In this document: positions 49,722-55,124 of the stretch, in pieces
Layout: each line of letters begins with the position of its first letter
Numbering within the stretch: the stretch's first letter is position 1
NCBI GenBank assembly: GCA_009773645.1
Contig: WSYB01000005.1
Span: 1-64,000 of the forward strand
DNA length: 64,000 nucleotides
Origin: Geobacteraceae bacterium
Lineage (GTDB): Bacteria; Desulfobacterota; Desulfuromonadia; Geobacterales; Geobacteraceae
Direction of reading: 5' to 3'
Notes under the pieces: generated by a model
Told to the model about the DNA's origin: nothing
The model's input: only the letters and a program-made list of their open reading frames with translations
Database searches by the model: none
Program-made: the position numbers and the translations under genes

Positions 49722-50947
49722 CTACTCATATCTGAGGGCGTCGATGGGGTTCAGGGATGCCGCCTTCCTGGCCGGATAGAAGCCGAAGAAGATGCCGACC
49801 CCGGCGGAAAAGGCGAAGGCGATGAGAATCGCCTGGGACGAGATCAGGGTCGGCCATTGCATCAGTTTCGACACTGCCATTGCCCCCGCCACCCCCAGCC
49901 CCATGCCTATTATCCCGCCGCACGTAGTCAAGAGCACCGCTTCGGTGAGAAACTGGAGCAGAATGTCCCGCTGCTTGGCGCCGATCGCCATCCGGATGCC
50001 GATCTCCCTGGTCCGCTCCGTCACCGACACCAGCATGATATTCATGATTCCGATCCCGCCGACGATGAGGGAGATGGAGGCTACCGCCCCCAAGAGCAGC
50101 GACATCACCTTGGAGGATTGTTCGGAGACGGCCAGGATCTCCGAGAGGTTGCGCACCGTGAAGTCCCGTTCCCTGGCCGGGCCGATCCGGTGACGCTGGT
50201 CGAGAAGTGTGGTCACCTCTTCTTCGGCCTTTTTCAGGACCTCAGCATTCTGTGCTTGAATCATCATGGCGCCGACGGAGTTAGGGAACTGGCTGCCGAA
50301 GACTTTACGTTGCGCCGTGCGCAGGGGGATGTAGATCACGTCGTCCTGGTCCTGCCCCTGGGGCGACTGTCCCTTGTGTTCCAGCATGCCGATGACCGTA
50401 AAGGGTATTTTCTTGATCCGGATGATCTTGCCGACCGGATCGGCGCTGCCGAAGAGGTTTTCGGCCACTGTCTGGCCGATCAGGCAGTTCTTAGTGGCGC
50501 CGTCCACATCGGCCTGGGAGATGTTTCTTCCTGCCGCCAGCGGCCAGTCCCTGACCGTCAGCATCTCCGGTGTGGTGCCCATGACGATGGTGGACCAGTT
50601 CTGATTGCCGAAGACCACTTGGGCAGAGCCCCGGATCGTTGGGGCCACCTCGGCTACGGAGGGGCATTCGGCCTTGATGGCCCGGGCGTCGTCGTAGGTG
50701 AGGGAGGGGGTTCCGCCGGAGCCGGTGCGCAGGCCCCCGCTGGTGGTGGAGCCGGGGAGGACCAGGAGCAGATTGCTGCCGATGCTGGCGATCTGGTCGG
50801 TGATCATCTTGCTCGCCCCGGAGCCGATGGCGACCATGGCGATGACGGCGGCGATGCCGATGATGATGCCGAGCATGGTCAGCAGTGCCCGCATCTTGTT
50901 GACCCGCAGTGCCCGGATGGCGATCAGCAGGCTTTGCCAGAGAGTTG

Positions 50948-50951
<4 letters not shown>
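49722..50951 (-). CDS. MacB/FtsX-type ABC transporter permease
   Basis: 409 residues with the MacB-type layout: one membrane segment near the N-terminus (about 18-40, MRALLTMLGIIIGIAAVIAMVAIG), a large periplasmic domain (about 50-280) and three segments at the C-terminus (about 285-400), ending PARKAASLNPIDALRYE. That ending is standard for the family. It is the mechanotransmission permease of a tripartite efflux or export pump that needs an adaptor (51674) and an outer-membrane TolC-like channel (not in the window). It overlaps the ATPase gene by four bases. Confidence 0.93.
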
Positions 50952-51673
<722 letters not shown>

Positions 51674-52882
51674 TTAGAACCTCGGCCCCATGGGGCCGCC
51701 CCCCATGCCTCCCGATTTTTTCTGAGTGGATACCTGTTCGGTGATCACTTCGTCGTTCTCCTTGAGGTTCCCCTCTACAAGCTCCACCTGGCCGTCGTTG
51801 CTGATGCCGGTCTTGAGCGGCACCGGGACCGGCTTGTTCTCCGGTCCCGGGATGAAGACCCGTTGTCCGGCTTCCTTCTTCCTCTTGGCCGGCTCGGACT
51901 TGTCCGGCTTCTCTTTCCCTTCTTTCGCCCCTTTCGGCTTGAAGCGGAGGGCCGCTGCCGGGATTTTCAGCACGTCGTCCTTGCGGGCCGTTTCTATGCT
52001 GACGTTGGCGGTCATCCCCGGCTTCAGCTTCAGGTCCTTGTTGTCGACGCTGATCACCACGACATAGGTGACCACGTTCTGGGTGACGACCGGTGCATTC
52101 CTGATCTGGGCCACTTTGCCGGCGAAGCGGCTTTCCGGATAGGCATCAACGGTGAAGGATGCTGGCTGGCCGACTCTGACCCGGCTGATGTCGGATTCAT
52201 CCACGCTGGTGTCGATCTCCATCCTGGTCAGGTCCTGGGCGATGGTGAAGAGGGTCGGGGTCTGGAACGAGGCGGCCACGGTCTGGCCAACATCCACGTT
52301 GCGCGAGACCACGATTCCGTCCACCGGCGAGCGGATAGTGGCATAGCGGAGGTTGGTTTCGGCCTGGTTAAAGGCACCGCGGGTCTGGGCCACACCTCCT
52401 TCGGCTGCCTTTAAGGTGGCAACGGCCATCTCGTACCTGGTTTCCGCCATGTCGAAATCGCTCTGGGCAACGATACCGTCCTTGATGAGCTGGCGGTTTC
52501 GCTCAAGGTTGCGTTTTGCGTCGTTCAGGTCGGCCTTTGCCTTTTGCAGGTTGCCCTGGGCGCTCAGATAATTCCCCCGGCTCTGATCCAACTGGGCCGA
52601 AAAGAGGGCTGGATCGATCTGAGCTATGACCTGACCTCTCTTCACCGGCGAATTGAAGTCAACGAAGAGCTTCTGAATGGTTCCGGAGACCTGGGTGCCG
52701 ACCTGGACTGTAACGACGGCGGTCAGGTTGCCGGTAGCGGAGACGGCCGAGACAATGGCGCCCCGCTCAATTTTGGCCGTCTTGTAAACCGTTGGCGGAG
52801 TTTTTTTGCTGTAGAAATAAATTCCCATGGCCACGGCGATGACAACGGCCGCTCCGGAAACAGAAATAATGATCTTTTTCAT
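51674..52882 (-). CDS. MacA/HlyD-type periplasmic adaptor
   Basis: 402 residues. An N-terminal membrane anchor (7-24) is followed by a first beta-barrel/lipoyl half (GTQVSGTIQKLFVDFNSPVKRGQ), a long alpha-helical hairpin (about 95-185), and the second lipoyl half with ATIRSPVDGIVVSRNVDVGQ. A charged insertion rich in Lys and Glu lies near 300-330, and the Gly/Met-rich C-terminus reads GGMGGGPMGPRF. It links the MacB-type pump to an outer-membrane channel. First gene of the export operon, 141 bases downstream of a promoter that carries palindromic operators. Confidence 0.93.
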   Translation of the reverse strand: MKKIIISVSGAAVVIAVAMGIYFYSKKTPPTVYKTAKIERGAIVSAVSATGNLTAVVTVQVGTQVSGTIQKLFVDFNSPVKRGQVIAQIDPALFSAQLDQSRGNYLSAQGNLQKAKADLNDAKRNLERNRQLIKDGIVAQSDFDMAETRYEMAVATLKAAEGGVAQTRGAFNQAETNLRYATIRSPVDGIVVSRNVDVGQTVAASFQTPTLFTIAQDLTRMEIDTSVDESDISRVRVGQPASFTVDAYPESRFAGKVAQIRNAPVVTQNVVTYVVVISVDNKDLKLKPGMTANVSIETARKDDVLKIPAAALRFKPKGAKEGKEKPDKSEPAKRKKEAGQRVFIPGPENKPVPVPLKTGISNDGQVELVEGNLKENDEVITEQVSTQKKSGGMGGGPMGPRF

Positions 52883-53000
52883 GAATTACCTCGGCCTGAC
52901 ATTTCTCGGGACACGGTATGCTTCCAAAGTTTCCCCGTGGTCCTGAAACGGGACCTGTGAGGAGGTCGAACGCATCGCGGAACAGGGATGTTTTATTACC

Positions 53001-53030
53001 TGAACAGATGTTCACCTGAACGATTGTTCG
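53001..53030. promoter_or_regulatory. Palindromic operator array over the macA-type promoter
   Basis: The array TGAACA-GA-TGTTCA-CC-TGAACG-AT-TGTTCG consists of alternating half-sites. The first pair is a perfect palindrome with a 2-base spacer and the others are near matches. It covers the -10 box and the start of transcription, the usual place for a TetR/AcrR-type repressor. No such regulator is encoded in the window. Confidence 0.65.
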
Positions 53031-53051
53031 ATATCATTATCATTTTGTCAA
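53023..53051 (-). promoter_or_regulatory. Sigma-70-type promoter of the MacAB-type operon
   Basis: On the minus strand a perfect TTGACA is followed after 17 bases by AACAAT. The -10 lies inside the operator array. Confidence 0.65.
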
Positions 53052-53148
53052 GGTTATTTTACCGCGAGCGGACATCTGGCAAAAGGGCAGAAAGCGGGCA
53101 GTGTGGACCGTGCAGGCAGCGCCGCCGATGAGTCATTCGCCTTGCGGA

Positions 53149-53176
53149 CAAAAAAAAGCCCCCTGTTTTATCCAGG
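53149..53176 (-). terminator. Rho-independent terminator
   Basis: The stem gccccctg/cagggggc is followed on the minus strand by eight T's. No protein gene ends nearby; the closest minus-strand gene stops 220 bases upstream. Confidence 0.88.
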
Positions 53177-53338
53177 GGGCTTCTCTTGGGTCGCCCGCCG
53201 CGCCAAACCGGCGGGCTAACTAGGGCAACCTTCTTTACAGCGGGTTACCGGGCGAAGCATATAGATTGTTGTCCACATGAGTTATAAGGTCTCCTTTCGC
53301 TGTGTATTTCCTTCCCTCTCTCTTGCTTCCCGGAGGAT
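53149..53338 (-). ncRNA. Candidate small transcription unit (sRNA or short leader peptide)
   Basis: A strong promoter (53345-53373) and a strong terminator (53149-53176) frame about 190 bases on the minus strand, with no gene in between. Read as RNA it has a hairpin with arms 53193-53199/53210-53216. It also contains a 20-codon frame (53278-53216, MWTTIYMLRPV...) and an overlapping 13-codon frame from GTG 53276. An AGGAG lies 12-14 bases before these starts, longer than usual, so translation is uncertain. I do not recognise an RNA family. It is a separate unit from the downstream MacAB operon, which has its own promoter. Confidence 0.5.
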
Positions 53339-53344
53339 GATTAA

Positions 53345-53373
53345 ATAATAATCCTCGCGAACGATAAAGTCAA
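53345..53373 (-). promoter_or_regulatory. Sigma-70-type promoter of the small unit
   Basis: On the minus strand TTGACT and TATTAT are separated by exactly 17 bases. Confidence 0.65.
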
Positions 53374-53396
53374 CGGGGCACAAATATTAAATTTAC

Positions 53397-54524
53397 CTAT
53401 AGATATTTCTTCATTAATCTCAGTAACGCCCCCTCTTTGACGTCAAGTGCCCCGTCCGGGCAGAGTTCCCGGCAGCAGAAGCAGCGGATGCAGCGGTGGT
53501 AGTCAAAATGGAGCTTCCCGTCCCTGACTTCAATAGCCTGCGGCGGACACGCCTCAACGCAGATGCGGCACAGCCTGCATTTTTCCGGGGAAGCCGCGGG
53601 GCGGGAGGTGAGGTAGTGGCGCAGCCGGTTTTTCAGAAACGGGGGGAGGCCCCACTGGACGTCGGAGATATGGGGGAGGCGGAAGTTGGACACCCGCGCT
53701 TCTTCAACCGGCATGCCGATTGTCCGGATGGTGGAGCGGTCAGCGCCGTCGAGCCCTAGTTTATCGGCCATCCGCTCGACGTAGAGGAGTTTTCGCGGGA
53801 TGCCGGCGATTTCTGCGGCAATCACATCCACTGCAACGGCGTTGGTTCCTGCGAGCAGAAGCCCCACGGCCCTGGGATCTCCGCTTCCCGGGCCGTTCCC
53901 TTCCATGGCGGTTATGGCATCAACGATAGTCAGGTCAGGCTTCCGCAGTTGGTATATTTCCAGGAGCATGCGTGCGAACATCTCCCGGTCGGCACCGGCC
54001 TTCAGGTGCCATGCGGCCTTGCCGGTCCCGACTACCGCACCGAACAGGTTTTTCACCGCGCAGGTCATGGTCATCATTTCGTGAGTCTTGAGCTTGGGGA
54101 GATTGATGAGCCGGTCGGCCTCCATGTAGGGGCGTGCCAGCTCAAAACGCTTGAAGGTCCCTTCGCCCGGCACTTCCATGGATTCGGCGAACTCCACCAG
54201 TTCGGCGCCGGTTTCCCGGACGACCTCAAGCATGCCGGACTTCTCGGCGACTCTGGCAAATCTCCCGATGCCGGGAGAATCTCCCACCAGCGGCACTCCA
54301 CCCCCTTCCTGCACCAGTTCGATCACTCCGCGGAGCACCGCCGGGTGGGTGGTAACGGCTGCTTCCGGCGGCTTTGCCGACAGCATGTTGGGCTTTATCA
54401 GCACCCGCTCGCCCGGCCCGACAAAGGTCGCCATTCCGCCGAGCGGCCCGAGAAGGCGGACGAGGGCGGACTTTACCTTTATTGTTTCGTAGATATCGGC
54501 TCTTTCAATGGTGACGAGATGCAT
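53397..54524 (-). CDS. DUF362 protein with C-terminal [4Fe-4S] ferredoxin domain
   Basis: 375 residues. The DUF362 domain spans about 1-290 (VLIKPNMLSAKPPEAAVTTHP, PLVGDSPGIG, LPKLKTHEMMTMTCAVKNLFG). The C-terminus has two ferredoxin motifs, CRLCRICVEACP and CIRCFCCRELCP. It is a second, distinct family member; the other lies at 32238. Proposed roles in the family include iron-sulfur or redox-linked maturation, none firmly established. No close operon partner: the next minus-strand gene upstream ends 171 bases away behind a terminator. Confidence 0.88.
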   Translation of the reverse strand: MHLVTIERADIYETIKVKSALVRLLGPLGGMATFVGPGERVLIKPNMLSAKPPEAAVTTHPAVLRGVIELVQEGGGVPLVGDSPGIGRFARVAEKSGMLEVVRETGAELVEFAESMEVPGEGTFKRFELARPYMEADRLINLPKLKTHEMMTMTCAVKNLFGAVVGTGKAAWHLKAGADREMFARMLLEIYQLRKPDLTIVDAITAMEGNGPGSGDPRAVGLLLAGTNAVAVDVIAAEIAGIPRKLLYVERMADKLGLDGADRSTIRTIGMPVEEARVSNFRLPHISDVQWGLPPFLKNRLRHYLTSRPAASPEKCRLCRICVEACPPQAIEVRDGKLHFDYHRCIRCFCCRELCPDGALDVKEGALLRLMKKYL

Positions 54525-54633
54525 GGATGAACTATATGGTCAATCCGCACGGTTTGTCAAAGGGTTTTGGAGGGTTTTCCATGGTAAAAGGGATGGGATT
54601 CCGGGGGCATACGCAGGCCCGTTCCCCACAACG

Positions 54634-54658
54634 AAAAAGCCCGCTTGTCGCGGGCTTT
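54634..54658 (-). terminator. Terminator after the HepT gene
   Basis: The stem aaagcccgc/gcgggcttt with a 5-base loop is followed by a T5 tract on the minus strand. Confidence 0.85.
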
Positions 54659-54695
54659 GCTGCAATAGAAAAGCGTAATTGATGTCAGCGGTGGC

Positions 54696-55124
54696 TTACC
54701 CACCGATGAAGGCGCCGAATTCCTTGAGAAACCTCCTGATATCGTCAAGCCTCGTTTCGATAATGCGGTGCAACTCGGTATCGTCAATGTCCCAGTAGAT
54801 GTGCACGAGCCTGTTCCGGAAACGCGCCATCTGGATCAGGGCCGCGGTGAAATCGGCGGCAAAGGCCCCTCTCTCCTCCATGACCCGGAACGTATCGGCA
54901 TAATCTTCCGGTGTCCTGAAGCCATTCTTGGCGATAATGTGGTTGCACAGGTCCACCGCTCCTTCGATGGCAACGATCAGACTGTATTTTGCGCTTCCCA
55001 CCTTGTGCGGATCGGCCGTGAACTCGTGGGAAGAGAGCTTCCGCAGATCATCCAGTCGCTCCAGGGCGGCCAGTACTTCGGAAGAAATTTTTCTTATTTT
55101 GTCCGGGTTAAATTGCAAGTCCAA
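54696..55124 (-). CDS. HepT-type HEPN ribonuclease toxin (DUF86)
   Basis: 142 residues if started at the TTG at 55124; a second TTG at 55118 is also possible. An AAGGAG ribosome site sits inside the last codons of the overlapping MntA gene, and no ATG fits. The all-helical sequence carries the HEPN active-site motif RX4HXY as R103-NRLV-H108-I-Y110. By family, HepT is an RNA-cleaving toxin that MntA silences by adding AMP to the tyrosine of this motif. The overlap of the two genes supports the pair. Confidence 0.88.
   Translation of the reverse strand: MDLQFNPDKIRKISSEVLAALERLDDLRKLSSHEFTADPHKVGSAKYSLIVAIEGAVDLCNHIIAKNGFRTPEDYADTFRVMEERGAFAADFTAALIQMARFRNRLVHIYWDIDDTELHRIIETRLDDIRRFLKEFGAFIGG

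Follow-up and report, generated by a model that had tools for sequence, protein, structure and literature searches.

The arrest peptides SecM, ApdA and TnaC have a conserved C-terminal stretch, located within the exit tunnel, and an N-terminal part of variable length. CutF of Rhodobacter capsulatus is a copper-sensing nascent exported protein; its report describes a CxxxC motif in a small protein, an RNA stem-loop right after the gene and a proposed stalling of the ribosome, together with a signal sequence, a proline-rich end and control of the next gene (PMC9973294). The CruR/DUF2946 uORF of Bordetella is, in its report, a short frame with paired cysteines that has metal genes nearby in some lineages, carries CXXC and a RAPP arrest motif, and acts in cis by Rho termination (PMC9426467). 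The leader-sized peptide peTrpL of Sinorhizobium meliloti comes from the trp attenuator and acts in trans, on a multidrug efflux regulator, according to its report (PMC7298713).

The window analysed here is a stretch of 64,000 nucleotides from a Geobacteraceae bacterium (WSYB01000005.1, positions 1 to 64,000). It contains a small unit encoding a micropeptide with a Cys-x3-Cys end, which resembles each of these systems in part. With CutF it shares CxxxC in a small product, a stem-loop right after the gene and a proposed stalling of the ribosome; it differs in having frames of mostly 16-28 codons, too short to hold a signal sequence, in lacking a proline-rich end and in having a next gene that varies. 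It is likewise a short frame with paired cysteines and, in some lineages, nearby metal genes, but its spacing is not that of CruR and it has no Pfam family match; with Pfam and NCBIfam searches of two family members, and with frames as short as these, neither a signal sequence nor DUF2946 membership was found. Like peTrpL it is leader-sized and may act in trans, but in the window it is not an attenuator product. The conserved C-terminal stretch, the variable N-terminal length and a presumed residence in the exit tunnel recall SecM, ApdA and TnaC. It departs from arrest peptides of the kind covered in the RAPP survey (PMC10987492) in having no RAPP-like motif (neither RAPP nor RGPP occurs in 20 family peptides), in being an autonomous unit and in its pseudoknot at fixed distance. 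CutF, CruR and peTrpL are the nearest precedents, and none is a relative by the tests made. The features of the locus are as follows.

53368..53373, minus strand: promoter -35 box TTGACT (scan and direct reading; TTGAC kept in most relatives)
53345..53350, minus strand: promoter -10 box TATTAT (scan and direct reading; ATTAT kept)
53315..53336, minus strand: possible short stem near the transcript 5′ end, CCTC with GAGG (tentative)
53291..53297, minus strand: Shine-Dalgarno site AAAGGAG (direct reading; kept in the first 20 relatives)
53216..53278, minus strand: 20-codon gene for MWTTIYMLRPVTRCKEGCPS, including the stop TAG (kept with synonymous changes)
53225..53227, minus strand: Cys18 codon, the final codon of the conserved core
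53217..53224, minus strand: 8-base spacer from the Cys18 codon to the hairpin
53193..53216, minus strand: GC hairpin, arms GCCCGCCG and CGGCGGGC (two helices, pairing in relatives)
53150..53182, minus strand: intrinsic terminator, stem 53182-53156 and then a T run (sequence, fold, pairing in relatives)
53000..53051, minus strand: context, macA operon promoter and putative double-palindrome operator (scan, reading, comparison of loci)
53397..54524, minus strand: upstream neighbour, DUF362/4Fe-4S ferredoxin gene (PF04015, 219 bits)
49722..52882, minus strand: context, downstream MacA-like, ABC ATPase and MacB-like genes

The initial annotation, made from the sequence alone, had placed a small stand-alone transcription unit on the minus strand at 53149-53373. 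Sequence, scan and comparison confirm the unit and its coordinates, and its own promoter and terminator support its independence. The TTGACT/TATTAT promoter with its 17-base spacer was found both by the scan and by direct reading, and the boxes are kept in relatives; promoter-like sites number seven in 52000-55000, against 1.2 ± 1.1 in shuffles. The predicted GC hairpin and strong terminator are both present, at 53216-53193 and 53182-53156. Direct reading of the T run gives eight consecutive T's, the first two of them within the stem. The terminator at 53150..53182 is absent from the list returned by the terminator scan, probably because its stem is extendable into the T run. None of 200 shuffles folds as well as the RNA of the unit, which has a z of -4.5.

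The next gene was also correctly said to have its own promoter, since TTGACA and a double palindrome are found at 53051-53000, before macA. The two palindromes, TGAACAATCGTTCA-like and TGAACATCTGTTCA, lie two bases apart, overlap the macA promoter and are kept in several relatives; from its sequence the pair looks like a repressor operator. The combination of TTGACA with TGAAC..GTTCA occurs in 5 of the 17 loci listed, the window's included.

A DNA search found the small unit in 50 of 58 related genomes, the own genome counted, and a peptide search found a MWTTIYMLRPVTRCKEGCPS-type peptide in 57 of 58 relatives, with a best E of 0.005 or lower in each. A profile of 20 peptides gave matches in 143 of the 277 genomes of the class; the own order contributes 132 (of 141) and the rest of the class 11 (of 136), three of the latter being weak. 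Many genomes have a second gene copy, of a type beginning MWTERFRIRPVSHCKEGC. The frame is intact in all of the first 20 loci, which were found by DNA similarity, and synonymous codon swaps are seen among them (TGC/TGT, AAA/AAG, GAA/GAG, GTA/GTT/GTG and CGC/AGA).

The family shares a 13-residue core, [FYW]M[LI][RP]xV[AST][HR]C[KS]EGC. With a degenerate DNA pattern, relatives of the core were found in Omnitrophota, Actinomycetota, Moorella, Peptococcaceae, Chloroflexi and Patescibacteria-type bins, the pattern matching at least 117 stretches over the named genomes. Among the 80 matches listed, about 32 are, by record title, from Omnitrophota and about a dozen from Actinomycetota and related bins; two Moorella, two Peptococcaceae, one Chloroflexi and two Patescibacteria-type bins are also listed, as are Geobacter and other deltaproteobacterial records. 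Weak matches at phylum level led to relatives such as MKRFMIPRVAHCSEGCPRRSWARR, and with a second profile 64 of 395 phylum genomes had a match at E ≤ 0.05, the lowest-ranked of which are doubtful. A sample of Omnitrophota (the phylum of locus L145) has the peptide in 44 of 145 genomes, as a single copy in 42.

A set of 198 loci was gathered with a core regex requiring C.EG[CS], and its loci L144-L260 with the DNA pattern, for which 98 of the at least 117 stretches were typed. The invariance of C14, E16, G17 and C18 is therefore partly imposed by the choice of loci; the DNA search (58 genomes), the peptide search (58) and the profile search (277) are free of this bias. At locus L109/L118 the relative MARKKWAIRPVAHCEEGSIFDPHVQI no longer has the second cysteine or the pseudoknot and keeps the remaining core. 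By the structure that follows the core, the 198 loci divide into 90 with a pseudoknot, 99 with a GC-rich hairpin and nine others.

Variation in both main types is concentrated at the third codon position, with an entropy of 1.40 against 0.48 (first) and 0.41 (second) for 89 pseudoknot-type sequences, and of 1.13 against 0.38 and 0.38 for 74 hairpin-type sequences. A Shine-Dalgarno-like site precedes 197 of the 198 collected frames, compared with 238 of 3000 random positions. Given this site and the synonymous changes, the 20-codon frame looks translated. It is one of two short frames proposed by the initial annotation, and the one that is real and kept. The other, a 13-codon frame with a GTG start in the +1 frame (product VDNNLYASPGNPL), is not kept, because its stop needs Cys14 to be TGT and most relatives have TGC. 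Conservation extends beyond the terminator and is strongest in the coding frame. The small unit is almost certainly a conserved gene for a micropeptide, with RNA structure in its 3′ part.

The structure in 90 of the 198 loci is an H-type pseudoknot after the Cys18 codon, N8-GUCC-Y-GGGCA-H-GAC-GNUAAAC-UGCCC. Nearly all of these loci are outside the own order, where the pseudoknot replaces the GC hairpin in most copies. Some genomes of the own order (G046 with L115/L120, G684 with L151) carry copies of both types. The pseudoknot type was sorted with a regex that matched the loop together with stem 1's 3′ strand, so that the 5′ strand and stem 2 played no part; the pair counts leave out L109, L247 and all but two of the nine other loci. 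In the 87 distinct sequences 92.1% of the cells are paired, compared with 25-41% when the partners are slid. Seven of nine pairs have changed on both sides. Cells changed on both sides number 35 against 14.7 ± 2.7 in shuffles, and none of 500 shuffles reaches 35. Covariation in stem 1, from G-C to C-G or A-U, can be seen in L150, L251, L180 and L159.

The fold of the own order also covaries in related genomes. Across 32 relatives, taken from the 80 hairpin-type units listed, the hairpins and terminator are 92.8% paired, with both-side changes at 12 of 22 pairs. The two helices of the GC hairpin have 96% and 95% of cells paired and both-side changes at four of eight pairs, and the terminator helix is 95% paired with compensatory changes. 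The possible 5′ stem is the weakest helix, with 77% of its cells paired.

Covarying pseudoknot and hairpins, and the quality of the fold, would also be expected of a structured regulatory RNA or riboswitch that merely happens to contain a reading frame. We consider this very improbable: changes in the frame are mainly synonymous, the Shine-Dalgarno site is near universal and there is no Rfam family. No family was found for the small unit at the gathering threshold, and an E-value search gave nothing near the cut-off. PyrR and similar weak Rfam matches (31 bits, where the cut-off is 54) look like terminator matches and were rejected. The only gathering-level Rfam match in the window is a SAM riboswitch (RF00162, 42506-42610, minus strand, 76.2 bits). 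The structured element that had been suggested is retained as part of a peptide-coding mRNA and given up as a ligand-binding RNA by itself.

The position of the folded RNA is tied to the Cys18 codon. With stem 1 of the pseudoknot placed at offset 8 after this codon, 88 of 90 loci pair over its full length, and a shift by 1 or 2 leaves none of the 90 fully paired. For the GC hairpin the start is at offset 8 in 66 loci out of 99, at 7 in 15 and at 6 in nine. The stop codon is far less regular, the number of codons from Cys18 to the stop being 0 (16 loci), 2 (58), 4 (5), 6 (64), 8 (40) or another value (13) in 196 loci. To judge from these sequences, the folded RNA usually starts about eight bases past the Cys18 codon, wherever the stop codon falls. 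Common descent alone could account for the shared offset; a single base separates GUCC in the pseudoknot from GCCC in the hairpin. Within the 8-base spacer the third base is T and the fourth A in 76 and 84 of 99 hairpin-type loci, and in 64 and 71 of 89 pseudoknot-type loci, a preference apparently beyond the demand of the amino acids.

A pseudoknot at such a distance is reminiscent of a ribosomal frameshift site leading to a longer protein, and the +1 frame is the most open (median 37 codons in the hairpin type, 20.5 in the pseudoknot type). The length of this open frame is not kept, the codon table has no slippery heptamer and no conserved protein was noticed in the shifted frames; of the explanations weighed, frameshifting is the least probable. 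A stop codon, mostly UGA, directly follows Cys18 in 16 loci and suggested a selenocysteine (SECIS) link. This was rejected because SelB is above the cut-off in only one of the 145 genomes of the Omnitrophota sample, and the peptide is present in 44 of them.

Neighbouring genes vary with lineage, and no single family common to all lineages was found at the loci surveyed. Within the own order a DUF362-family frame is upstream of the micropeptide gene in 32 of 47 loci, and a MacA-like frame is downstream in 21 of 47, with other genes elsewhere. Neighbours in the scan set are mechanical ORF picks, with Pfam checks for the named ones only; of ten neighbour ORFs checked, including those of L153, five had no match. 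From these picks 47 downstream and 50 upstream genes were selected by hand (from 56 and 74), a set from which the hairpin-type loci of Geobacterales and some picks of doubtful quality are omitted. The next gene downstream in this selection is Rrf2 in 19 of 47 cases, mostly in Omnitrophota by record title. Other next genes include a copper-type P-type ATPase (Moorella), ribonucleotide reductase, TetR, GrdB, radical SAM and hemerythrin, and ArsP accounts for four of the 50 upstream genes.

A cis-acting leader peptide or attenuator of the next gene has precedents in CutF (PMC9973294) and CruR (PMC9426467). The arrangement alone, a frame 30-60 bases before a co-directional Rrf2 gene, is found in many Omnitrophota. 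In the window a terminator and the separate macA promoter intervene, and the unit does not have the position of a leader, immediately before a regulated gene and on one transcript with it. Downstream genes differ among relatives, and L153 has no co-directional neighbour, being flanked by a DEAD-box helicase gene and a TerC gene, each with a clear Pfam match and each on the opposite strand. Control in cis is accordingly improbable as a general explanation. For the MacAB genes, an attenuator in which a hairpin arm pairs alternatively with the terminator (judged by eye) was dropped because macA has its own promoter/operator and the downstream genes vary. The initial annotation had offered an sRNA, a leader peptide gene or a structured sensor; a MacAB leader finds no support and a short peptide gene strong support, the small peptide gene being, on sequence evidence, the best fit among these guesses.

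A recurring neighbourhood in Omnitrophota (L145, L158, L183 and others) consists of the micropeptide, Rrf2, ferredoxin, zinc-ribbon or rubredoxin, and hybrid-cluster-protein genes. The gene hcp is present in 36 of 44 sampled Omnitrophota genomes with the peptide and in 37 of 101 without it (Fisher p 5.8e-7, uncorrected for kinship), and 19 of 44 micropeptide copies lie within 5 kb of hcp. The Rrf2 and hybrid-cluster-protein neighbours hint at a role in redox or NO stress in this phylum. One explanation of the gene is that the peptide itself does the work, as a soluble Cys-x3-Cys micropeptide with a role in metal binding, in reactions with thiols or NO, or in the regulation of a protein. On this view the 3′ structure would only protect the mRNA or mark its end, and no pause of the ribosome would be programmed. 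The strong selection on the amino acids, the redox, metal and efflux neighbours (Rrf2, copper-type ATPase, ArsP, hemerythrin) and the link to hcp, by co-occurrence (with its kinship caveat) and by proximity, all agree with this explanation. It leaves two things unexplained: the distance of the structure is held to Cys18 rather than the stop codon, and the pseudoknot reaches into the end of the frame. We regard it as a serious possibility, ranked second.

Database searches gave no established identity. Two family members have no match in Pfam or NCBIfam, no solved structure in the PDB matches the micropeptide, and a search for phage or plasmid carriage gave only chance matches (E 8-9). The strings RPVTRCKEGC, AHCKEGC, AHCSEGC, SHCKEGC, TRCKEGC and HCKEGC have no match in the literature within the scope of the search (which stopped short of subscription papers, supplements and preprints), and nothing on this element was noticed among the papers listed for G. 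sulfurreducens small RNAs, arrest peptides, pseudoknots, micropeptides or Omnitrophota. As regards a RiPP precursor (PqqA-like, GeoRSP), one radical SAM gene (L174) was found among ten downstream genes checked. GeoRSP and geopeptide are, we presume, names for a radical-SAM peptide of this sort; among the papers listed in a literature search none had the term GeoRSP.

We favour, tentatively and ahead of the plain functional micropeptide, a programmed pause at Cys18 that involves the nascent Cys-x3-Cys peptide and has its output in trans. The two-cysteine end and the near-constant folded RNA suggest a very small protein whose translation includes an intended pause of the ribosome. The helicase site of the ribosome is about 11 bases from the P site. 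With the structure at offset 8, a ribosome would first meet it intact when Cys18 is in the P site, and it is on this coincidence that the pause model is based. The whole conserved peptide would at that point still be inside the exit tunnel, and translation may pause or arrest with ...CKEGC just made. Tuning of the pause by the nascent Cys-x3-Cys peptide, in response to redox state, NO or a metal, could set the amount of peptide or of mRNA that survives. The pause may thus serve a nascent-peptide sensor or, alternatively, the controlled release of a trans-acting Cys-x3-Cys peptide. Action in trans is proposed because the neighbouring genes vary and because some copies are not adjoined by any gene in their own direction.

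It is possible, if doubtful, that there is a cross-phylum class of autonomous “ribosome-stop” micro-genes, in which a 16-20 residue Cys-x3-Cys nascent peptide and a pseudoknot eight bases past its last conserved codon work together as one translation-time sensor of redox state, NO or metal, with a trans output and no cis-regulated gene. The gene is very short and deeply conserved, and its 13-residue core extends over several phyla, apparently unannotated. The covarying pseudoknot stands at a fixed distance from one codon, and peptide and RNA are therefore separately testable. If the pause is real, the gene would be a translation-time sensor that needs no gene in cis.
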